This document shows, piece by piece, positions 4,191-63,096 of a stretch of 64,000 bases of DNA. The stretch comes from Flavisolibacter tropicus. GTDB taxonomy: Bacteria; Bacteroidota; Bacteroidia; Chitinophagales; Chitinophagaceae. A program made the translations under genes and the position numbers. Each line of letters begins with the position of its first letter. Position 1 is the first letter of the stretch. The stretch spans positions 1,860,001 to 1,924,000 of the forward strand of contig NZ_CP011390.1 in the NCBI RefSeq assembly GCF_001644645.1. Direction: 5' to 3'. The notes beneath the pieces are model-generated. The model had not been told where the DNA came from. It searched no databases and saw only the letters and a list, made by a program, of their open reading frames with translations.

Positions 4191-4252
4191 ACTACTTTAA
4201 AATGAACGCAAAGATAACTAATAGTACCGCTGCGCCTAATCGTTGCACTCTT

Positions 4253-4404
4253 TACGCCGTTGTTGGTGTTCCTCTTGGCCCATGTGCGGCAGCTGCACCA
4301 ACAACTGAACGTAGTAGAGAGGTTCTGCTATAAGTTGTTTATCTTCAACCGTGTTGTTGGTGGGCTTAACACATAACCTTCACCTCAACACCAACAACGG
4401 CGTA
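4253..4404 (+). repeat. Family A four-arm repeat, most intact copy
   Basis: A 152-bp element with perfect 18-bp terminal inverted repeats TACGCCGTTGTTGGTGTT. The 10-mer GTTGTTGGTG occurs four times in alternating orientation: 4259-4268 (+), 4296-4305 (-), 4353-4362 (+), 4389-4398 (-), so it can fold either as one nested stem or as two side-by-side hairpins. No obvious target duplication. No coding capacity. Confidence 0.85.
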
Positions 4405-4595
4405 GTTCAGCTTTTGTGGATTTGTTCGTCTTCAGTTTCTCAATTTAGCATTGGTATCGGGTGTACTTTTGCTCAAGTCATAAGCAAGAAGACACAACAG
4501 ACGGTTTTACAGTCACTGGAACCTTGAGCAAAACTACTGAGCAGCACGACACATTACCCTGCACGACATTTTATAACTTCAAAATAGAAATTACT

Positions 4596-4928
4596 ATGGG
4601 AAAGTTTGTAATTACAAAACGTAGCAACGGCGAGTATCAGTTTAATTTAAAAGCCGGTAACGGACAGACCATTCTTAGCAGCGAAGGCTATTCTTCAAAA
4701 GCGGGTTGCGACAATGGCATTGACTCGGTGCGGAAAAATTCACAGGACGACAGCAAGTATGACCACAAGGTATCTTCTAACGGTAAATATTACTTCAACT
4801 TAAAAGCGACAAACGGGCAAATCATCGGCACAAGTGAAATGTATGAAAGTGTAAGCAGCAGGGACAACGGCATTGCATCTGTAAAAACGAATGCTCCTGA
4901 CGCAACTGTTGACGAACAGACAACATAA
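4596..4928 (+). CDS. YegP-family (DUF1508) protein
   Basis: A 110-residue protein from the ATG at 4596; a longer frame back to 4461 adds a non-homologous leader and is not preferred, since MGKFVITKRSNGEYQFNLKA is the canonical family start. Two tandem DUF1508 units are visible: GEYQFNLKAGNGQTILSSEGY..K..CDNGIDSVRKN (residues 9-50) and GKYYFNLKATNGQIIGTSEMY..V..RDNGIASVKTN (58-100). The fold is a small beta-sheet dimer; the biological role is unknown although the family is widespread and sometimes stress-induced. It lies between a family A repeat (5') and a family B repeat (3'), so it looks like a one-gene cassette. Confidence 0.9.
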   Translation: MGKFVITKRSNGEYQFNLKAGNGQTILSSEGYSSKAGCDNGIDSVRKNSQDDSKYDHKVSSNGKYYFNLKATNGQIIGTSEMYESVSSRDNGIASVKTNAPDATVDEQTT

Positions 4929-5036
4929 CAACACTAATGGTTTTTAGTATGACAGCGAAGTATGGCACATTACTGGGGTTTGCTGCTATGCTGGCTGATA
5001 GCGAATAAAAAATCATCTTTTTATTCCATTTAACTG

Positions 5037-5193
5037 GCGCAAGTATGCAGGGCAAGCCATTGAGCGTGGGGTACTTGTGCCGCACTGTTAGTAATGTTTT
5101 AGCTTAGATGCTTTTCGTCGTTTACAGTAGAGGTAGTACCTGTCCTTTGTCCCGGCACAAGTACGCTTAGCGGCAATGGGCTTGGCTGCATAC
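5037..5193. repeat. Family B inverted repeat
   Basis: Outer arm GTATGCAG (5043-5050) pairs with CTGCATAC (5186-5193), CAAGCCATTG (5053-5062) with CAATGGGCTTG (5174-5184, one-base bulge), and GTACTTGTGCCG (5071-5082) with CGGCACAAGTAC (5153-5164, perfect). Second full copy at 58503-58640 and a half copy at 56797-56848. Lies about 110 bp after the YegP-like gene. Confidence 0.75.
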
Positions 5194-5428
5194 TCATATC
5201 ATTGCAAAAGATTATTTTTCATTATAGCAACAAAGCAATTAAGTAACCAGTACGCATACTAAACAAGCATCGCTATGTTGAGCGCAAGGCCTCCCTTAAT
5301 TGCTTTTTCTTTTAAAGCCTGAACAGTACTTAAAGGTAGCCGCCTTACAGAGCTGCTAACCTTGTATAAAATATGAGAGAAGGCTACTAAAGAAAACGTT
5401 GCTGCGTATTCATTTTTAAAATTCAGGT

Positions 5429-6499
5429 ATGGATTTATTGAAGTATGGTATTGGTATAGACATGGCCATGGACAGCTTTGATGTTTGTTTAAGTGTAATT
5501 GACCGCCAGCAGCACGTTATCATTCAAGCACGCAGCAGTTTTAGTAATGACAAAACAGGGTTTGATCGTTTCGATGCCTGGTGTACGAAACACAAGAAGC
5601 TCCCTTTGCCGACGGTTTATTTAATGGAAGCAACGGGGGTCTATTATGAGCAGCTGGCCTGGTACCTGCACACCAAAGCATACGATCTCTCCGTTGTGCT
5701 TCCCAACAAAGCCCGGAAATATAAAGAGTCGCTGGGCCTGAAATCAAAAACCGATCGTATTGATGCCAAAGGCCTTGCCCAAATGGCCTGCGAACAACAG
5801 TGCAGCCGGTGGCAACCCTTATCGGCCAACATTTACCGGCTGCGATTGGTGACCCGGCAGATTCAAAACCTTACCGAGCAAGCCATCGCGCTGTCCAATC
5901 AGTTGCACGCCCTGCAGCATGGCATGTTCCGCGATAAAGACCTGGAGAAGATGCTGCAAAAGCAACTAGTGGTTCTAAAAAAGAACAAAGCGTCACTTAA
6001 AACAAAAGTGCAGGCACTTATCGATGCTGATCCGGCCTTAAAACAAAAATTTGAAAAGATCGGGAGCATCAAAGGACTGGGCTGCCAAAGCCTGGCCGTA
6101 ATTGTAGCAGAGACCAATGGTTTTGCGGCTTTTGAAAGTGCGGGGCAACTGGTCAGTTATGCAGGCTATGATGTAGTGGCCAACGACTCCGGTAAGCGGG
6201 TAGGTAAAACAAAAATATCCAAGAAGGGCAATAGCCGGATCCGGAGGTGCTTGCATTTTCCGGCTTTTAATATGATTAAATATGAAGTGGGTGTTTTTAA
6301 AAACCTCTATCAAAGGGTGTATGAAAGAAGTAAGCTGAAAATGAAAGCGTATACAGCGGTACAGAAAAAACTGCTTATGATCATCTATGCACTTTGGAAA
6401 AACAACGAAGCTTTTATCGATAAGATACCGGGGCCAGCATTAGGCGATACAGCCGCAGCGCCTTCGGTGGCATTGGTTGGGCAAGGGACAAAAAATTAG
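5429..6499 (+). CDS. IS110-family transposase (DEDD/serine recombinase)
   Basis: A 356-residue transposase of full family length. The RuvC-like DEDD_Tnp_IS110 domain has Asp11 (GIDMAMDSFDV), Glu67 (MEATGVYYE) and Asp109/Asp112 (KTDRIDAKGLA), matching the expected DEDD set. A coiled-coil middle (about 140-210) leads to the Transposase_20 domain with GSIKGLGCQSLAVIVAE and SYAGYDVVANDSGKRVGK; Ser254 in NDSG is the likely catalytic serine. IS110 enzymes cut and paste double-stranded circles guided by a bridge RNA made from the element's non-coding end. All catalytic residues are present, so it may be active. The next ORF (6602) starts right at the presumed right end and seems to have lost its 5' part. 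Confidence 0.95.
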   Translation: MDLLKYGIGIDMAMDSFDVCLSVIDRQQHVIIQARSSFSNDKTGFDRFDAWCTKHKKLPLPTVYLMEATGVYYEQLAWYLHTKAYDLSVVLPNKARKYKESLGLKSKTDRIDAKGLAQMACEQQCSRWQPLSANIYRLRLVTRQIQNLTEQAIALSNQLHALQHGMFRDKDLEKMLQKQLVVLKKNKASLKTKVQALIDADPALKQKFEKIGSIKGLGCQSLAVIVAETNGFAAFESAGQLVSYAGYDVVANDSGKRVGKTKISKKGNSRIRRCLHFPAFNMIKYEVGVFKNLYQRVYERSKLKMKAYTAVQKKLLMIIYALWKNNEAFIDKIPGPALGDTAAAPSVALVGQGTKN

Positions 6500-6521
6500 C
6501 CCGGGCAAACGCCTGGGCTAA
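6496..6521 (+). terminator. Hairpin overlapping the IS110 transposase stop
   Basis: TTAGCCCGGGC / GCCTGGGCTAA, 11-bp stem with one G-T pair and a 4-base loop; it overlaps the stop codon. No T-run follows, so it may be an RNA structure of the element's right end rather than a terminator. Confidence 0.5.
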
Positions 6522-6601
6522 ACAAGATAGACAGCCATCGAAGTATCGGCAGATGTCTTCTTTAAGAAAACAAAGGTATTAAAAATTAGTGCCTGAATAA
6601 T

Positions 6602-6979
6602 TTGGTTTTCTTGACAGTACCTTGCGCCAGATTGAGGGTATTTGGAGATGAACCACTGCCCACGACAATTGTTCATTCATCAAATGACGAAGCAATTATT
6701 GCACAGTGGGTATATGGTGAAAAAGAAAGTGAGAATGCGCTGCAAACTGTTGATTTTCCAGCATTGAATTGGAACTTCAATTTAGTAATTAAATTCTGTT
6801 CACCAGAACAGTATCTGTTTGATGCAACTATCGATGGAAGAAGTTTAGTTGCAAAAGATGATGGCACTTTCTTTTTGAAAATGAATCTATCGACGAGGGA
6901 ATATCAAGTCTTTTCCACTTTTTATGAGCCAGGCAGCCAGACAAGATTTATTCTTTATAAGCTATTGAGAACCAATTAG
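6602..6979 (+). CDS. Hypothetical protein, probably 5'-truncated by IS110
   Basis: An open frame of 125 codons beginning at a TTG with no plausible upstream start: an in-frame stop lies at 6587-6589, inside or at the edge of the IS110 right end. Residues from about 25 on (SSNDEAIIAQWVYGEKES..VDFPALNWNFNLVIKFCSPEQYLFDATIDGRSL) look like an ordinary folded globular protein, but I recognise no family. The simplest reading is the 3' remnant of a larger gene into which the IS element was inserted. It is followed within a few bases by a family C structured repeat (6982-7122). The start and expression are doubtful. Confidence 0.5.
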   Translation: MVFLTVPCARLRVFGDEPLPTTIVHSSNDEAIIAQWVYGEKESENALQTVDFPALNWNFNLVIKFCSPEQYLFDATIDGRSLVAKDDGTFFLKMNLSTREYQVFSTFYEPGSQTRFILYKLLRTN

Positions 6980-6981
6980 CC

Positions 6982-7122
6982 TGCAGCCAACAGCTTTTTA
7001 CTGCAATAGTGGCAAGTGAACATATTTTGAACAACAACTATTCTATTTTACTTTAGTGCAAGCGTGAACCTGAAATGCAAAGAATGCCACCACTGACAGC
7101 AACAAGTTCTCCGTTATCGGCA
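6982..7122 (+). repeat. Family C structured spacer ending in CCGTTATCGG
   Basis: Shares CTGCAGC.AACAG, ACTGCAATAG, TTGAACA and a TTCTA..TTA.TTTAG tract with the spacer at 9328-9480. TAGTGGCA/TGCCACCA and GCCAAC/GTTATCGGC can pair. The 3' end CCGTTATCGG (7111-7120) stops 9 bases before the next ATG, as attC-like cassette junctions do. Confidence 0.5.
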
Positions 7123-7129
7123 ACTTAAT

Positions 7130-7690
7130 ATGACAACTACATTATTTGGATTTATTGTTTTAGCCTGTACTGTAATTGGCTGCACTGACAGCTACTCTCA
7201 TAGTGCGCTCACCCAACAAACGTGGGTTGATACAACGGCATTTCCCAAAAAGCCATTTTCCAAAGTAGTTCTGTTTGTTTTAGATTCAACTGCACGCACT
7301 ACCATTTCTACTGCATCGGAAGGAACAATCCAAGACACGACTAAGGTTGAATACAGAGGTGGCGGCTACACCTTTGTCAGTAAAGCAGGTATTCCTAAGA
7401 CAAGTGAACACAAGACCTATACATTGGACTCGCTACAAGTGCAAGCTTTAGTAACCCAACTTAAGCAGCGGCCCTGCAAAAGTGATTTGGTCGCTGATAA
7501 AAACTGTTCGCCTACCTACCAACATGTATACGTGTTTTACAATCAACAACAGCAACCCATTGCTCAAGTACATGTGTGTTTTAGCTGCGAAAAAGCAGCT
7601 TTTTTACCCGATGTAGAATATATGTGCGATTTTGACAATAAGGCTGATTTTACTGCATTCAAAGCCCTTACAAACCACATCAGTCGCTAA
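7130..7690 (+). CDS. Putative lipoprotein of unknown function
   Basis: A 186-residue protein with a signal peptide and lipobox (LACTVIGC, Cys18), so a lipid-anchored periplasmic or outer-membrane protein. The mature part is mixed alpha/beta with four Cys in the second half (RPCKSDLVADKNC, CFSCEKAAF, YMCDF), possibly disulfide-bonded or metal-binding. No domain recognised. The gene starts 9 bases after the end of a family C fold and is followed after 22 bases by a family A repeat, so it is bounded on both sides by structured repeats in the manner of a gene cassette. Confidence 0.75.
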   Translation: MTTTLFGFIVLACTVIGCTDSYSHSALTQQTWVDTTAFPKKPFSKVVLFVLDSTARTTISTASEGTIQDTTKVEYRGGGYTFVSKAGIPKTSEHKTYTLDSLQVQALVTQLKQRPCKSDLVADKNCSPTYQHVYVFYNQQQQPIAQVHVCFSCEKAAFLPDVEYMCDFDNKADFTAFKALTNHISR

Positions 7691-7712
7691 GTGCAACAGA
7701 AACCTTCTATCT

Positions 7713-7863
7713 AACCCCGTTGTCGGTGTTTATTTTAGCCTTTTCACTGCTACTGCACCAACAACTGAAAAAAGTAGAGATGTCCCGCCATAAGTTGTTT
7801 TTCTTCAACTATATTGCTTGCGGATTAATTACATAGCCCTAGACTCACACAAACAACGGCGTA
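7713..7863 (+). repeat. Family A four-arm repeat, copy 2
   Basis: 151 bp; left end AACCCCGTTGTCGGTGTT and right end CAAACAACGGCGTA, both diverged from the 4253 copy; inner CACCAACAACTGAA...ATAAGTTGTTT...CTTCAAC...ACATAGCC conserved. Same orientation as the other copies. The remaining 7864-8039 stretch is the long AT-rich leader of the RRM gene. Confidence 0.75.
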
Positions 7864-8039
7864 AAATCTATTCTTTGTGACATAATTGGCTGTATATATG
7901 GAAAGAAAGCCTACCTTCATCTTGTTAGTTTGAGCCTCGCATTAGTATTCATTAATTATTCTGCTTAGCAATCTGCATCTTAGTTAGTTTCTTACTGCTT
8001 GCTTTTCTCAATCTTTTTGACAATTATTAATTTTTAAAA

Positions 8040-8354
8040 ATGAACATTTTCGTTTCAAACTTAAGCTTCAACATTCAGGATGAAGACTTAAGAGATTTTT
8101 TTGCTGAATATGGTGAAGTAGCTTCTGCCAAGATAGTGATGGATAAAATGACAAACCGCTCCCGTGGATTTGGTTTTGTTGAAATGGCTGATGATGAAGC
8201 TGCTAAAAAGGCTATTGCCGAATTAGATGGCGCTACAGTTGAAGGCAGAGCCATTAAAGTAATGGAAGCCAAACCAAAAGAAGCCCGTCCTGCTCGCGAC
8301 TTTAATCCCTTCCGCCCCAATAAAGGGAGTGGTTACAATAAAAATAGATATTAA
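8040..8354 (+). CDS. RRM-domain RNA-binding protein (Rbp-type)
   Basis: A 104-residue single RRM protein with RNP2 IFVSNL at residues 3-8 and RNP1 RGFGFVEM at 42-49, followed by a basic, Arg/Pro/Gly-rich tail (RPARDFNPFRPNKGSGYNKNRY). Such small RRM proteins in Bacteroidota and cyanobacteria bind single-stranded RNA and act as RNA chaperones, often in cold or stress responses and as global post-transcriptional regulators. Nearly 180 bp of AT-rich leader precede it, suggesting 5'-UTR control as for cold-shock type genes. It has its own terminator and lies between two family A repeats in the same orientation. Confidence 0.95.
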   Translation: MNIFVSNLSFNIQDEDLRDFFAEYGEVASAKIVMDKMTNRSRGFGFVEMADDEAAKKAIAELDGATVEGRAIKVMEAKPKEARPARDFNPFRPNKGSGYNKNRY

Positions 8355-8380
8355 TAGCTCTCTTCTACAATTTCTGAAAA

Positions 8381-8407
8381 GCCTTGGTGTCATCCAAGGC
8401 TTTTTTA
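8381..8407 (+). terminator. Terminator of the RRM gene
   Basis: GCCTTGG (8381-8387) / CCAAGGC (8394-8400) followed by TTTTTTATTT. Confidence 0.9.
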
Positions 8408-8504
8408 TTTATAGGTAACAAAGAAGTTCACCTGACATTGCTTGGAGTGCCAAAATACCCACAGCCGAACATTCACTTAGCATTTGGTCTTTCATCAACA
8501 CTCT

Positions 8505-8656
8505 TACGCCGTTGTTGGTGTTTCCCATAGCCCTTGTGCTGTGGATGCACCAACAACTGAAAGGAGTAGATGTTTACTGGTATAAGTTGTTTAACTTCAA
8601 CCATGTTAGTGGTGGGCTAATTACATAGCCTTTAACTTAACACCGATTAAGTTGTA
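8505..8656 (+). repeat. Family A four-arm repeat, copy 3
   Basis: 152 bp, left end TACGCCGTTGTTGGTGTT identical to the 4253 copy, right end eroded (AACACCGATTAAGTTGTA). Inner arms conserved. It ends 15 bases before the TTG start of the next gene. Confidence 0.8.
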
Positions 8657-8671
8657 GAAAATTTAAGTCTT

Positions 8672-9325
8672 TTGAACAAACAAGCATATTGGATTGGCGC
8701 CTCTTTAATAGTAATCGCTTTCATATTTGCTGTTATAAGCTACTACCTCCTAATCTTTTGTATTCCGTTATTTGTAATTGGGTTAATCGTTGTTTCTTTT
8801 GCTCGGGTTACCATTAAACGGTGGATTCTAACTTGCGTTCTCCCTGTGGCGCTTTGGCTTCCCTGTAGCTATATGTTTTTGTATGCCTATGGGTGGAACC
8901 CCAAGGAGGTGTATTTGATTCCTGATGGATATACCGGCCCTATTTCCATAGTCTACGAGGAGAAATGCGGTACTACTCCTTTAAAAGAGAACGGCTTTAA
9001 AACATTTCGAGTTCCAGACAATGGTATTTTGATTGTCAACTTGCCTCGGAAAAACGGCTTCATAAATCACGAATACTATTACCTAAAGAAAGATGGAACA
9101 AAAACAAAACTGGCGGAAGCGAACTACTATGACACGTCTCTTCGACAAGTACCTAGTGTTTCATTTACAGGATCGGGTATGATTGGAAGCATCAGCGGAG
9201 GCGAAATTCAGTACTCAGAGCTCTGGGTATTTGGACATAAAAGGGTTGGTCGTTCTGAAAATGAAAGTAAAGTTGATTCAACGTTACTGGCCGAGGTCGA
9301 AAAGTGTAGGCGCTCCTCCCAATAG
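8672..9325 (+). CDS. Membrane protein with DUF6843-like periplasmic domain
   Basis: A 217-residue protein starting at a TTG (MNKQAYWIG); no better start is near. Three hydrophobic segments occupy residues 5-30, 31-48 and 52-75. The C-terminal extracytoplasmic part begins YLIPDGYTGPISIVYEEKCG, the kind of IPxGYxG opening seen in DUF6843-type domains of Bacteroidota (recognised by eye, not searched), and continues through beta-rich sequence to residue 190. Function unknown. Flanked by a family A fold on the 5' side and a family C fold on the 3' side; codon use is not visibly different from neighbours. Confidence 0.7.
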   Translation: MNKQAYWIGASLIVIAFIFAVISYYLLIFCIPLFVIGLIVVSFARVTIKRWILTCVLPVALWLPCSYMFLYAYGWNPKEVYLIPDGYTGPISIVYEEKCGTTPLKENGFKTFRVPDNGILIVNLPRKNGFINHEYYYLKKDGTKTKLAEANYYDTSLRQVPSVSFTGSGMIGSISGGEIQYSELWVFGHKRVGRSENESKVDSTLLAEVEKCRRSSQ

Positions 9326-9327
9326 GA

Positions 9328-9480
9328 CTGCAGCAAACAGAGTGTAACTGCAATAGCAACGAAAGCACAAGGATTGAACATCGGCAACTCTATTCTACAT
9401 TAGTATAAACTTGAGGCCACAGAGCACAGAGTTACAACACCGGCTGCAACATGTTTATCATTTTGAGCAATACTTAATAC
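9328..9480 (+). repeat. Family C spacer, second copy
   Basis: CTGCAGCAAACAG, ACTGCAATAG, TTGAACA and TCTATTCTACATTAG align in order with 6982-7060. The second half is diverged and lacks the CCGTTATCGG end. Confidence 0.45.
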
Positions 9481-9495
9481 AACTAGTCACCAATA

Positions 9496-9957
9496 ATGAA
9501 AAATTTAGCTGACATCCTCCTTACTACGCTAATTGCAGTATTTGTGGGAACACTGGTTTCCTTGGTGATGGTTCTGCTTTTGAGTACAGCCGACAGCGCC
9601 ATATTAGCGGCTATTTTAATCCCATTCAATATTTTTCTGCCTACACTATTAGGAGTGAGTATCTACCATTCCCTAAAGACGTCGAAATTGAAATTACAGC
9701 AGTATGGAGTCTTTCAGCAAGGTTTTCGTCTGTCGATTGTTTTTGGTGCAGGTCTTTTACTATGGGCAGTTTTGGAAGTTCTCATAGGTTCTGGAATTCA
9801 AGCAGGAATGCTGAGCAAAATGAAACGCACCTTTGTTTCTCAGTTTCTGGGATTTGTACCGGTAGCTATTGCGATAGCTTTTGCAATTCCTATAATTGAT
9901 AAGAAACTTAATACCAATAAAACTGCGGCAAAAAGGGATGTAGCGGATAGGCTTTGA
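9496..9957 (+). CDS. Small four-helix membrane protein, unknown
   Basis: A 153-residue protein with four predicted membrane segments (about 7-30, 34-55, 76-98 and 118-136) and a charged C-terminal tail (KLNTNKTAAKRDVADRL). Overall organisation resembles DUF4199-type small membrane proteins of Bacteroidota, but no diagnostic motif is seen, so it is left as hypothetical. It follows a family C spacer. No partner gene suggests a role. Confidence 0.65.
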   Translation: MKNLADILLTTLIAVFVGTLVSLVMVLLLSTADSAILAAILIPFNIFLPTLLGVSIYHSLKTSKLKLQQYGVFQQGFRLSIVFGAGLLLWAVLEVLIGSGIQAGMLSKMKRTFVSQFLGFVPVAIAIAFAIPIIDKKLNTNKTAAKRDVADRL

Positions 9958-10136
9958 TGACACAGCGCTTAACACAATGTTCCGAAAACTATGGCTTGCC
10001 ATCAAGGAATCAGTACACTATCTTTAATTAATGCCAATAGAGGAATAGAGCAGCAGAAACACCTACGCCCACTGTTCCATTAGGCTAAATGTAGAAGACG
10101 CTTCATCTAATCATTTATAACGCCCTTACTAATAAA

Positions 10137-14990: not shown

Positions 14991-15006
14991 AAGACTGCTA
15001 TCATTT

Positions 15007-15155
15007 TACGCCGTTGTTGTTTCTCTTAGCCCTTGTGCTGCGGCTGCTCCAACAACTGAAAGGAGAAGATACATCCTGCTATAGGCTGTTTACTTCCACT
15101 AGTGTTGTTGGTGGGCTGGTCACATGGCCATAGCCACAACACTAACGGCGGCGTT
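15007..15155 (+). repeat. Family A four-arm repeat, copy 4
   Basis: About 149 bp. Left end TACGCCGTTGTTG, right end CACTAACGGCGGCGTTA; inner CCAACAACTGAAAGGAG, GTGTTGTTGGTGGGCT conserved. Same orientation as all others. Confidence 0.75.
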
Positions 15156-59875: not shown

Positions 59876-60111
59876 GTAATTGTTTGAAATATTTTACAAC
59901 AAACATATATAAAAGCTTTCAACTACGATATGCTTCGTATTACTATTTTAGAGACTTTAACAGGCCATACATAAAAGTTCACTAAAGCCGATGAAACCGT
60001 TTACGAAAAAGTAAGTTGTCTATGAATGTATTTGCGGTCTTAAAACACAAGACTGATACTTGCTATAACATCTAGCACCTCTTGCAAAAGATGAATAATC
60101 AGATAGCTTAT

Positions 60112-60182
60112 CGCTAACGGAGCGAGGATTGGTGAAGTAGCGGAATTTGAAAATTTGCTGCTTCATTTCCTTGCTAGCGTTG
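60112..60182 (-). repeat. AttC-like fold ending in CCGTTAGCG
   Basis: About 71 bp, imperfect hairpin: GCGAGGATTGG..GAAGTAGCG pairs with GCTGCTTCATTTCCTTGC. On the minus strand the element ends CCGTTAGCG (complement of 60112-60120). It follows the gene at 60219-60695 and precedes the hydrolase. Confidence 0.55.
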
Positions 60183-60218
60183 TTTGTTGTTTGAAGCTGA
60201 AAGATAGCACGTCATCCG

Positions 60219-60695
60219 CTATTTTACCGATCCTGTGTTAGCAGCACTGTTCTTCAGTTTGTACCATCTAAAAAACAAAAGAACGATAGCGATAGCCATA
60301 ATGCTTTTAATGACTAACAGTATCAGGTTGTACTTCTCTTCAGTCAGTTGGCTTATACCTAAAGAAGCTAAGGGCGGGTAAGATGTCCATCCATAAGTTA
60401 TATAATCAATAAGGAAAATAAAAACAATCCCTGTTGACAAAGCCGTTATGAATGCGGCCTTGTCTCTCCTTGGAGAATAATAAAGTCTTACAAAGAAGTA
60501 AATAAAAATTATTAGCAGTAACACAGAAACAAAGAACCCCCACAAATTATAAGCAACATAGCTATCCATTATTTTAATTGATATAATGCCATGTTCAAAG
60601 CTCGGTTGCCATAACATTGCAAATAAACTACTGACTACTATCAGAGCCAAGCAGAAACAAACAATATAAAAAGGAATTGATTTACGCTTTCTCAT
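60219..60695 (-). CDS. Small multi-span membrane protein, unknown
   Basis: From the ATG at 60695 (MRKRKSIPFYIVCFCLALIV) 158 residues; an upstream GTG at 60710 is possible. Four hydrophobic segments (about 8-28, 50-72, 85-105, 125-145) joined by a charged loop (RLYYSPRRDKAAF). No recognisable family. Preceded on its 5' side by a structured repeat whose end lies about 20 bases upstream. Confidence 0.65.
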   Translation of the reverse strand: MRKRKSIPFYIVCFCLALIVVSSLFAMLWQPSFEHGIISIKIMDSYVAYNLWGFFVSVLLLIIFIYFFVRLYYSPRRDKAAFITALSTGIVFIFLIDYITYGWTSYPPLASLGISQLTEEKYNLILLVIKSIMAIAIVLLFFRWYKLKNSAANTGSVK

Positions 60696-60715
60696 TTTGG
60701 AGGTTCTCACTCATT

Positions 60716-60854
60716 GCTGATAACGTAGTGAAGCTTTCCGAAGTACAGGTAGTCGGTGTTCATGCCGCTCAGGTTGGTACTAAGATAAATAGAATTGATT
60801 AGTTGAGCCTATGTACTGCCTCCTGTATTTTGGGAAACCTGTATTAGCGGCTGC
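60716..60854 (-). repeat. AttC-like fold ending in ACGTTATCAGC
   Basis: TTTCCGAAGTACAGG (60735-60749) pairs with CCTGTATTTTGGGAAA (60822-60837), and GCTGATAACG with the GTATTAGCGGC side. Minus-strand 3' end ACGTTATCAGC (60716-60726). Begins at the stop codon of the gene at 60855. Confidence 0.55.
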
Positions 60855-61289: not shown

Positions 61290-61304
61290 AGAGAGTTAAG
61301 TTAC

Positions 61305-61438
61305 CGCTAACGGAACAAGTATTGCTGCCAGTGGTGGCCGTCCGTGATCCTGTTGTAGGATTAAAGGTAAGGGGTTGATTCGAATTGTTATGCTGGTTAC
61401 AGGTATGCTTCCACCATTGCAGCAATATCGTGTGCTTG
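61305..61438 (-). repeat. AttC-like fold, interrupted by IS1182
   Basis: CAAGTATTGCTGCCAGTGG (from 61316) pairs with CCACCATTGCAGCAATA and CTTG (61411-61438); minus-strand end CCGTTAGCG (61305-61313). The IS1182 left end begins at 61437, in the distal arm. Confidence 0.55.
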
Positions 61439-63066
61439 TTGCACAACTCAGCCTCCTAAAGCCACTGTAAAAGTGGTAAATTAAACCATGCAAGGAAAGA
61501 AACCTTTTCAAGACAAGCGCCTTGCTTCCTTCCGCCTCTCGGAGCGGGTGCCGCGTGACAACTTCTACCGCCGCTTAAAAGCAATCATGGATGTGGAGTG
61601 GCTCTATGAAGCCACCCAAAAGTACTATGGCCGTGAGGGCCACAAATCGCTGGACCCGGTGGTGTTCTTCAAACTCATTTTAATTGGTTATCTCGAGAAC
61701 CTCTTAAGCGATCGAAGAATCATCCAGACCGTCAGCCTGCGCCTGGATCTTTTGTACTTTATCGGTTACTCCCTGGACGAACCGCTGCCCTGGCATTCTA
61801 CCATCAGCCGCACGCGTCAACTTCTGGGTGAAGAGGTCTTTAAAGAACTCTTCAAACGGGTCTTACGCCAGTGTGTGCAACAAGGCATGGTGAAGGGCAA
61901 ACGCCAGGCCCTGGACTCGGTGCATGTCAAAGCCAATGCGTCGATGGACTCCTTAAAAGAAAAAGAAATTGTGCAGGACGGGGAAGCCTATGCAGGTGAA
62001 CTCGGTGAAGATGCAGAGGACGAAGAGCAAACAGAAAAGCAAACCGTCTCCGTCTTCAAACACCAGCAAGTGCAGTGGCATCACGGCTGGAAGCGGAAGG
62101 CCTACAAAGGGCGGCCCAGTGGTGGATGGCGGGCTCGCTTTGTCTCCAACCACACCCACTACAGCACTACCGATGGGGATGCCCGTGTGGCCGTCAAACC
62201 CGGCAAGCCCCGCCAGTTAAACTATTTGGGGCAACTCAGTGTCGATACCGCCCATCACGTTATTACTTGTATACAGGCCGACTATGCCAGTAAAAAAGAC
62301 TCGCAGTGTTTGCCCTCATTACTCCGGCATACCATTGACAATGTAAAGGCGGTAGGCTTAAAAGTAAAAGAAGTACTCTGCGATGCGGGCTACTCCTCTT
62401 CGGAGGCCCTAAAAGCACTGAAGCAGTACCGTGTCACCGGCTATATCCCCAACTTTGGGCAATATAAACCCACCCGGGAAGGCTTCCGCTATTTTGCCGG
62501 CGGGGATTATTACCAATGCTCCCGGGGAGTAAGGCTTCCTTTTAAACGCATCAAGGACTCTCATGATGGCACGTACCAGATGCGGGTCTACAGAAGCAGT
62601 TCTTTGGATTGCAGGAACTGCCCTTTGAGAAAAACCTGTATTGGTAAAAGTGATTTTAAAAAGATTGAAGACACTGTAGACAAACCCCTCTATGATGAGA
62701 TGCATCTCCGGCTACAAACCCGCAAAGCCAAACGTATGAAACGGCTTAGGCAAGCCACCGTCGAACCGGTGATTGGTACCCTGGTGAACTTTTTAGGGAT
62801 GCGACGAGTGAACACAAGAGGCATCCAGCTGGCCAACAAGTGTTTGCTGATGGCCGCCGTGTGTTATAATTTGAAAAGACTCCTAAAATGGATGGGGAAA
62901 GCCGAAGGCAAAGGCGAAAAAACGCTTGGCCAGCTACTGGTTATGCTGTACTGGCTACCGGTTCTCTACAGCCGAAGAGGAGAGCAAATACAAACCAGCT
63001 TAAGCTACGCTTGCTAAAATCAAAAAACCACATACAAATACTGTTTTAGTTCCGAGTTGTGCAACA
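61437..63066 (+). mobile_element. Complete IS1182-family insertion sequence
   Basis: Terminal inverted repeat TGTTGCACAACTC at 61437-61449 and its complement GAGTTGTGCAACA at 63054-63066; 1630 bp with a single transposase gene. No clear target duplication. Confidence 0.85.
61488..63017 (+). CDS. IS1182-family transposase
   Basis: A 509-residue DDE transposase: DUF772 N-terminal domain (SLDPVVFFKLILIGYLENLLSDRRI, PLPWHSTISRTRQLLG), then a DDE core with D in QALDSVHVKANAS, D in DAGYSSSEALKAL, and E in ATVEPVIGTLVNFLGMRRV, with the CxxC-containing insertion CRNCPLRKTC typical of the family. Full length and undamaged, inside intact terminal repeats, so potentially mobile. Confidence 0.95.
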   Translation: MQGKKPFQDKRLASFRLSERVPRDNFYRRLKAIMDVEWLYEATQKYYGREGHKSLDPVVFFKLILIGYLENLLSDRRIIQTVSLRLDLLYFIGYSLDEPLPWHSTISRTRQLLGEEVFKELFKRVLRQCVQQGMVKGKRQALDSVHVKANASMDSLKEKEIVQDGEAYAGELGEDAEDEEQTEKQTVSVFKHQQVQWHHGWKRKAYKGRPSGGWRARFVSNHTHYSTTDGDARVAVKPGKPRQLNYLGQLSVDTAHHVITCIQADYASKKDSQCLPSLLRHTIDNVKAVGLKVKEVLCDAGYSSSEALKALKQYRVTGYIPNFGQYKPTREGFRYFAGGDYYQCSRGVRLPFKRIKDSHDGTYQMRVYRSSSLDCRNCPLRKTCIGKSDFKKIEDTVDKPLYDEMHLRLQTRKAKRMKRLRQATVEPVIGTLVNFLGMRRVNTRGIQLANKCLLMAAVCYNLKRLLKWMGKAEGKGEKTLGQLLVMLYWLPVLYSRRGEQIQTSLSYAC

Positions 63067-63096
63067 GCCACTCGTGTTATACAACGGCATCAGGCA

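Follow-up and report, generated by a model that had tools for sequence, protein, structure and literature searches.

Folded sites at gene ends in Flavisolibacter tropicus look like cassette sites of an integron-like system with a Xer-like integrase

Between 4.25 and 9.5 kb of a 64,000-nucleotide stretch of the Flavisolibacter tropicus genome (NZ_CP011390.1, positions 1,860,001 to 1,924,000; the whole stretch is called the window here), short genes alternate with long folded inverted repeats. Integrons are the textbook gene-shuffling device, and an earlier note on this DNA had read the arrangement as a cassette array with attC-like folds. The question was whether these folds are cassette sites and, if so, which enzyme moves them. 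The genes listed in that note (a DUF1508/YegP gene, an insertion sequence (IS) of the IS110 family, an open reading frame (ORF) downstream of it, a lipoprotein-like ORF, an RRM gene and a DUF6843 membrane protein) were all confirmed on the plus strand, and the listed folds were present; their treatment as one class did not hold, as folds A, B and C are three unrelated families. Fold C is very probably the cassette site of an integron-like system, whose cassettes would be moved by a Xer-like recombinase, with a remnant cluster in the window. The system looks to be shared by many related bacteria, and the recombinase behind it is apparently not the usual integron integrase. Folds A and B (REP-A and REP-B, for repetitive extragenic palindromic) are ordinary mobile palindromes that appear to have landed at the same place.

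By blastn, fold C matched itself only, and a covariance model was needed. A profile from three fold C copies recovered more copies, in same-strand series. In the whole genome, a covariance model trained on this genome only (R1) gave 47 matches at E ≤ 1, 39 of them below E 0.002; the best 150 of 2059 candidates were scored, so that these counts are lower bounds (at least 39 copies), and the E-values of the model are rough. A new model built from the folds had been proposed in the earlier note, and such a model found C sites in other genomes of the family as well. The note had also staked its reading on a link between folds and gene ends, which was borne out for fold C: 28 of the 39 own-genome sites start between -20 and 100 nucleotides from a same-strand stop codon (random mean 2.8, maximum 9 in 200 trials). 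Two further sites overlap the stop by 29 and 42 nucleotides, which brings the number near gene ends to 30 of 39. By a simple ORF caller, 33 of the 39 were intergenic (random mean 9.7, maximum 18).

The structure of fold C was conserved with covariation. RNAalifold predicted 14 pairs in 15 aligned copies, 10 of them with at least one compensatory change. On 14 own copies, 80.7% of cells were paired, compared with 64.6% in shuffled and 30-45% in slid alignments, and covariation was 0.432 versus 0.174 when shuffled; this structure was drawn from the same 14 sequences, which biases the comparison in its favour. In an alignment of 103 distinct sites, drawn from several genomes including the present one and fitted to the model, 86.2% of cells were paired and covariation was 0.570, versus 0.171 shuffled and at most 0.086 slid. 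Each site consists of AACA, usually four unpaired bases, a split stem, a terminal part, the other arm, usually six to eight unpaired bases, and CGTTR. The terminal part was 70-141 nucleotides long in 103 of 105 sites, and two features of the stem, an A opposite C and an unpaired C, were kept in 97-102 of the 105. Site lengths were 130-149 nucleotides in 74 of the 105 and 200-209 in 27. Of these two main classes, noted at L175, L183, L190 and other loci, the long one has about 60 extra bases in the terminal part. Like integron attC sites, whose features were taken for comparison from passages of PMC2727003, C sites thus combine conservation of the folded strand through compensatory changes with asymmetric unpaired parts.

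The "integrase-less" character given in the earlier note is true of this locus only: there was no match to a Pfam tyrosine recombinase within the window, but an integrase-headed C array is present in the same genome at 3.10 Mb. There, a 389-residue tyrosine recombinase (G000:C1 3104197-3103028, minus strand) is followed by a C array, which spans 3095897-3101609 and one long-form site. The system as a whole looks like an integron-like one with a Xer-like integrase. Residues R245, K270, H334, R337, H360 and Y369 were invariant in 35 sequences and are presumably the catalytic residues of the enzyme. Residues 1-80 form an N-terminal extension ahead of the SAM-like domain, with predicted strands and helices (predicted local distance difference test score about 92). 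The genome has four further tyrosine recombinases, and no C site at E ≤ 1 was found in their 1.5-kb flanks.

A search for relatives with the recombinase returned four loci, of which L142 had a clear array and L144 one weak same-strand site; no C site was found at L141 and L143, for which 548 and 209 nucleotides downstream were available. A larger sample comprised 40 loci: 20 recombinase loci of the family (first set) and 20 high-scoring ones chosen from 78 genomes of other families with a match at E ≤ 1e-55 among 296 genomes of the phylum (second set). The first set was scanned with R1 and the second with R2, a model whose training sequences came from this genome, from L142 and from the first set, over 395 kb downstream and 123 kb upstream, on both strands. 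C sites below E 0.01 numbered 74 in the first set and 53 in the second, and without exception these 127 sites lay downstream of the recombinase gene, on the same strand, with at least one site at 33 of the 40 loci. The one-strand array of genes and sites beside an integrase, as expected of an integron, was thus found. Several contigs end 0.1-2 kb past the recombinase (G040:C20, G118:C25, G110:C18, G041:C203, G064:C3 and others), as if the assembly had broken in the array.

Among 147 genomes of the family, the recombinase was found at E ≤ 1e-40 in 58 and C sites at E ≤ 0.001 in at least 102 (the best 19 candidates per genome were scored). Both were present in 56, the recombinase only in 2, sites only in 46 and neither in 43 (Fisher p 9e-10, in which related genomes are not independent). 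Among 296 genomes drawn from the phylum, 83 had the recombinase at E ≤ 1e-55. Plasmid records matching it at E ≤ 1e-40 numbered 87, and some of these relatives carry the NCBI product name "site-specific tyrosine recombinase/integron integrase". Of four plasmids examined, one from Chryseobacterium had four C sites on the recombinase strand, two had weak matches only (best E 0.03 and 0.05) and one had none. In the Chryseobacterium plasmid just named (sp. SNU WT5, L260), the recombinase is followed by its four C sites with genes for Crp/Fnr, RidA, a metallophosphoesterase and others; the plasmid further carries an IS110 element and a group II intron maturase.

In integron cassettes, whatever lies to the right of the crossover in a site is part of the cassette of the next gene; complementarity is therefore expected to the left end of the following site and not to that of the same site. 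In 62 consecutive pairs, the first seven bases after GTT gave a mean of 5.73 matches, with 47 pairs at 6 or 7; shuffled pairs averaged 3.38 (maximum 3.89 in 2000 shuffles), and the two ends of the same site 3.20 (101 sites). Parsing of both ends succeeded for all but 22 of the 123 sites of this set, and only pairs no more than 2.2 kb apart were used. In the second set, 21 of 27 pairs reached 6 or 7 (mean 5.59; shuffled 2.92, maximum 3.85 in 5000; within one site 2.87). Position 8 was a near-constant mismatch. As in integrons, the boundary falls in the R' box and the 5' end of most cassettes is complementary to their own R''.

One gene-plus-site unit was common to loci L249 and L251 (91% identity over 1019 nucleotides), whose genomes belong to different families, one of the same class as the present genome and the other of the same phylum only. 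The likeness starts abruptly at ACC^GTT, the preceding sequences being unrelated, and fades within about 25 nucleotides past the CGTT of the next site, where the following cassettes begin alike.

Candidate attI sites were sought as the expected partner of the left end of the first C site. Within 600 nucleotides past the recombinase stop, GTT with six or seven of the seven predicted bases was found by script at 11 of 20 loci, nine of them with all seven bases. In the present genome, which is outside these 11, a candidate (GTTCGTATATTTGATA|GTTGTGTGC) was recognised by eye, on the same criterion, about 193 nucleotides past the recombinase stop. Several candidates share CGTATATTTA or GCGTATATTAGCA ahead of the GTT. 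These putative sites occupy the place beside the integrase where an integron has its attI.

These observations suggest that the Xer-like recombinase is the acting enzyme and that one folded strand of the C site is its substrate. It would probably recombine folded single-stranded C sites with a double-stranded attI beside its own gene, and circular cassettes (TTRNNNGC...gene...GCNNNYAAC-stem-CG) would be inserted and excised at CG^TT. Cassettes may still be moving.

The C sites of the window, and the genes and IS beside them, are the following.

6980..7124, plus strand: C site 1 (attC-like), after the ORF at 6602-6979, ending TCCGTTATCGGCAAC before the start of the lipoprotein-like ORF; R1 109.2 bits (E 3.5e-21), R2 86.9 bits, in both training sets.
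9327..9471, plus strand: C site 2, after the stop (9325) of the DUF6843 gene; R1 87.8 bits, R2 62.2 bits, both trained on it.
9962..10090, plus strand: probable degraded C site after the ORF at 9496-9957; R2 19.9 bits, E 0.009, a weak match.
4955..5020, plus strand: what is probably the left half of a C site of the long form, downstream of the YegP-like gene and interrupted by the REP-B insertion; identified by eye through comparison with L183 5227-5432 and other long sites, and missed by the model.
61300..61443, minus strand: C site of a second array, with an IS (seen from its junctions) between the R'' end and the stem; R1 103.7 bits.
60713..60854, minus strand: C site of the second array; R1 115.2 bits, R2 103.8 bits.
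60107..60248, minus strand: C site of the second array; R1 97.9 bits, R2 88.7 bits.
61437..63073, plus strand: IS with a 509-residue DDE transposase (61488-63017), ends approximate.
4596..4928, plus strand: YegP-like gene (DUF1508, PF07411), probable cassette gene.
6602..6979, plus strand: ORF with C site 1 directly after it; its cassette start was not found and is possibly lost behind REP-B and the IS110 element.
7130..7690, plus strand: lipoprotein-like ORF without a Pfam match, starting 5 nucleotides past C site 1.
8672..9325, plus strand: DUF6843 membrane protein (PF20862), followed by C site 2.

With R2, the plus-strand region thus had two to three C sites and no integrase. The spacing example of the earlier note was exact: CCGTTATCGG (7111-7120) ends 9 bases ahead of the ATG at 7130. 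For fold C, its cassette reading stood, with one-strand gene-plus-site units, CG^TT boundaries, a core unlike GTTRRRY and a system other than the IntI integrons. The 4.25-9.5 kb stretch would be a small remnant cassette cluster away from the integrase, comparable to a cluster of attC sites lacking integrases (CALIN). This cluster would later have been invaded by REP-A and REP-B and by the IS110 element. We infer that it is now decayed and broken, and a missing cassette-start match would then be expected here. On the minus strand, the pair 60713 to 60107 followed the cassette-start rule in 6 of 7 positions. None of seven proteins was matched by PADLOC.

Some IS and introns insert in attC sites. 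Four copies of the 509-residue DDE IS were seen, 97-98% alike (window 61437-63073; L061 4409-6178; L128 13429-15096; L132 7599-9301), and all lie inside a C site, between the R'' end and the stem. This IS seems to target C sites. Homologues (51-57%) of the M28 peptidase neighbour of the window were found in 5 of 18 other genomes searched. In one of these five, a genome of the same genus (G004, L269 2692-6014), a broken relative of the integrase and one C site adjoin the M28 homologue.

Several results weigh against a cassette system run by this recombinase. Forty-six of the 147 family genomes had C sites and no such recombinase at E ≤ 1e-40; degraded integrases, incomplete assemblies, the candidate numbers scored or another enzyme could account for these. 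Seven of the 40 recombinase loci had no C site (L182, L241 and L244, with under 300 bp downstream, and L189, L243, L248 and L256), and attI candidates within 600 nucleotides were lacking at 9 of the 20 loci scanned by script. The cassette-end rule (6 or 7 matches) was seen in only 3 of 11 own-genome pairs and in 44 of 51 outside it; this shortfall may come from insertions and from missed sites between neighbours. No cassette starts were found for the three plus-strand C sites of the window. Likewise, no syntenic relative without the cassettes of the window was found, and the four regions examined, of the five with M28 homologues, showed no match to the other window genes compared.

Could fold C simply be an ordinary attC, with cassettes captured or moved by a rare IntI or by one encoded elsewhere, and the Xer-like recombinase incidental? 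The attC-like anatomy (R''/stem/R', asymmetric unpaired spacers, CG^TT boundary) and the 46 sites-only genomes would suit this explanation. No IntI above the cut-off of TIGR02249 was found in any of the 147 family genomes (the best 14 candidates being considered in some of them), however, and the R-box consensus was rare: GTTRRRY occurred in 9 of 89 and RYYYAAC in 7 of 90 parsed ends, while GTTR occurred in 78 of 89 (out of 105 sites, the rest unparsed). The placing of the C sites at recombinase loci, without exception downstream on one strand, also speaks against an incidental enzyme, and we consider this alternative unlikely. The recombinase itself scored 177 bits on TIGR02249 (cut-off 265), with the profile matched only at 4-180 and 241-315. 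The IntI-specific domain is missing, residues 181-247 of IntI4 being faced by 23 residues of the recombinase. A contiguous TIGR02249 match in another genome (L207) was considered as an IntI and rejected, as by eye it is one of two adjacent ordinary tyrosine recombinases.

Folds A and B have another origin, and for them the cassette reading of the earlier note was abandoned. They are REP palindromes, arranged as bacterial interspersed mosaic elements (BIME), of REP-associated tyrosine transposases (RAYT), a known kind of element with copies flanking RAYT genes. The link to gene ends also failed for the first copy of fold A, which sits between two divergent genes. Their copies in the window are as follows.

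4252..4405: fold A copy 1, inverted REP-A hairpin pair (BIME/REPIN).
7712..7865: fold A copy 2.
8504..8657: fold A copy 3.
15006..15155: additional copy of fold A, outside the 4.25-9.5 kb stretch.
5032..5194: fold B, inverted REP-B hairpin pair; the last bases of the right hairpin stand after the IS at 6621-6630.
5195..6620, plus strand: IS110-family element (ORF 5429-6499; PF01548/PF02371) inside the right REP-B hairpin at GCATACT^, its ends inferred from the junctions.

Genome-wide, blastn gave 27 matches to fold A, on both strands, and 11 to fold B. The long form of fold A consists of two hairpins of about 54 nucleotides (TTTACGCCGTTGTTGGTG...CACCAACAAC) in inverted orientation, and the short form of one hairpin; fold B is an inverted pair of GGCACAAGTAC...GCATACTTGCGCCAG hairpins, resumed after the IS. 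There were seven Y1-like matches in the genome. On NF047646 (cut-off 80 bits), RAYT1 (94.6), RAYT2 (93.9), RAYT3 (108.2) and RAYT4 (81.5) passed, and a truncated RAYT5 was under the cut-off with 50.4 bits. RAYT1 and RAYT2 are each flanked on either side by B hairpins, and the copies upstream of RAYT1 include one A hairpin; RAYT4 has A hairpins on both sides, and the truncated RAYT5 lies between two A hairpins. RAYT3 (L042) has, as read by eye, its own separate hairpin (GGCCTCAGCC...GGCTGAGGCC) on each side. In inverted hairpin pairs and in copies that flank Y1 genes passing NF047646, folds A and B are the same as known REP/BIME elements with a RAYT (TnpA_REP), and no essential difference was seen. 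According to passages of PMC6006769, RAYT genes of the Bacteroidetes subclass 2.6 have atypical structures on their flanks, further copies of which occur elsewhere in the genome. The RAYT genes found here fit this subclass by the motif YIH-NP, judged by eye.

REP-A and REP-B would have been spread by RAYT, and the IS110 element would have used REP-B as its target. IS110 elements can target REPs, and the four distinct copies in the DNA examined (window 5195-6620, L048, L049 and L065) are all at the same REP-B hairpin base. Stretches like TTTATCTTCA in fold A (window 4340-4370) and in the middle of several C sites resemble TAnnTTTG, the Bacteroidota promoter box, and folds A and C may carry promoters.

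That all three folds are REP/BIME palindromes of Y1 transposases is very unlikely, true as it is of A and B, which flank RAYT genes. C sites do occur near RAYT2 (L065 9373 and 10219) and RAYT4 (L061 2495 and 6045), but these are on one strand and after genes, and form no inverted pair around the transposase. The flanks (1.5 kb) of RAYT1 and RAYT3 had no C match at E ≤ 1. Fold C is moreover tied to gene 3' ends and complementary across genes, neither of which is predicted by REPs. Least credible of all is a role of the C folds as terminators of transcription or as regulatory RNA, which their conserved hairpins just past stop codons might suggest. The matching ends lie on opposite sides of a gene in neighbouring sites, a recombinase heads the arrays, one entire gene-plus-site unit is common to L249 and L251, and Rfam gave nothing at gathering score in the window (four weak matches, E 0.7-1, all under their gathering scores).

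With fold C as the cassette site of a Xer-like recombinase, its distribution (at least 102 of 147 family genomes with sites, and 83 of 296 phylum genomes with the recombinase) means that a large mobile gene pool may be unrecognised. We lean towards the wider proposal that Bacteroidota have a second, IntI-independent integron lineage of their own, with a Xer-like integrase lacking the domain held essential for folded attC. This lineage would be either an independent invention or a survivor from before the IntI domain, and its phylum-wide gene pool would have been missed by IntI-based tools. Passages of PMC4792948 describe a chicken-and-egg problem, in which the additional domain of IntI seems to depend on the extrahelical bases of attC, and these in turn on the domain. 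If our proposal is true, folded sites are recombined without the IntI additional domain, and this question becomes directly testable. According to a survey of complete genomes (PMC9024848, section 3.1), Bacteroidetes proper have one complete integron, in Salinibacter ruber; passages of PMC8618304 list Bacteroidota among integron-bearing phyla, and those of PMC2426708 list the Bacteroidetes/Chlorobi group with integrons. No account of the C cassette system was found in the open-access papers searched.

Compared with the Xer/XerA simple tyrosine recombinases (NF040815; PDB 4a8e, 5hxy), the recombinase scored 207.8 against the NF040815 cut-off of 220; its N terminus is longer by about 110 residues, and cassette arrays are associated with it. 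Passages of PMC8138268 state that the insertion, although integron function depends on it, is only partly conserved in an integron-like subgroup of tyrosine recombinases; relatives lacking it have therefore already been seen, as proteins. With integrons and CALIN, the C system shares the recombinase-headed one-strand array of genes and hairpins, the attI-like site, the CG^TT crossover, sites conserved more in structure than in sequence, and dispersed clusters free of integrase. It was not classed as an integron because the IntI domain was looked for and not found, and the R-box consensus fitted few of the parsed ends. It differs from integrons in the missing additional domain, in R boxes that read AAC/GTTR, then a variable triplet and GCNAY, in an integrase and cassettes that are read in the same direction, and in its 130-149 and 200-209 nucleotide site classes.

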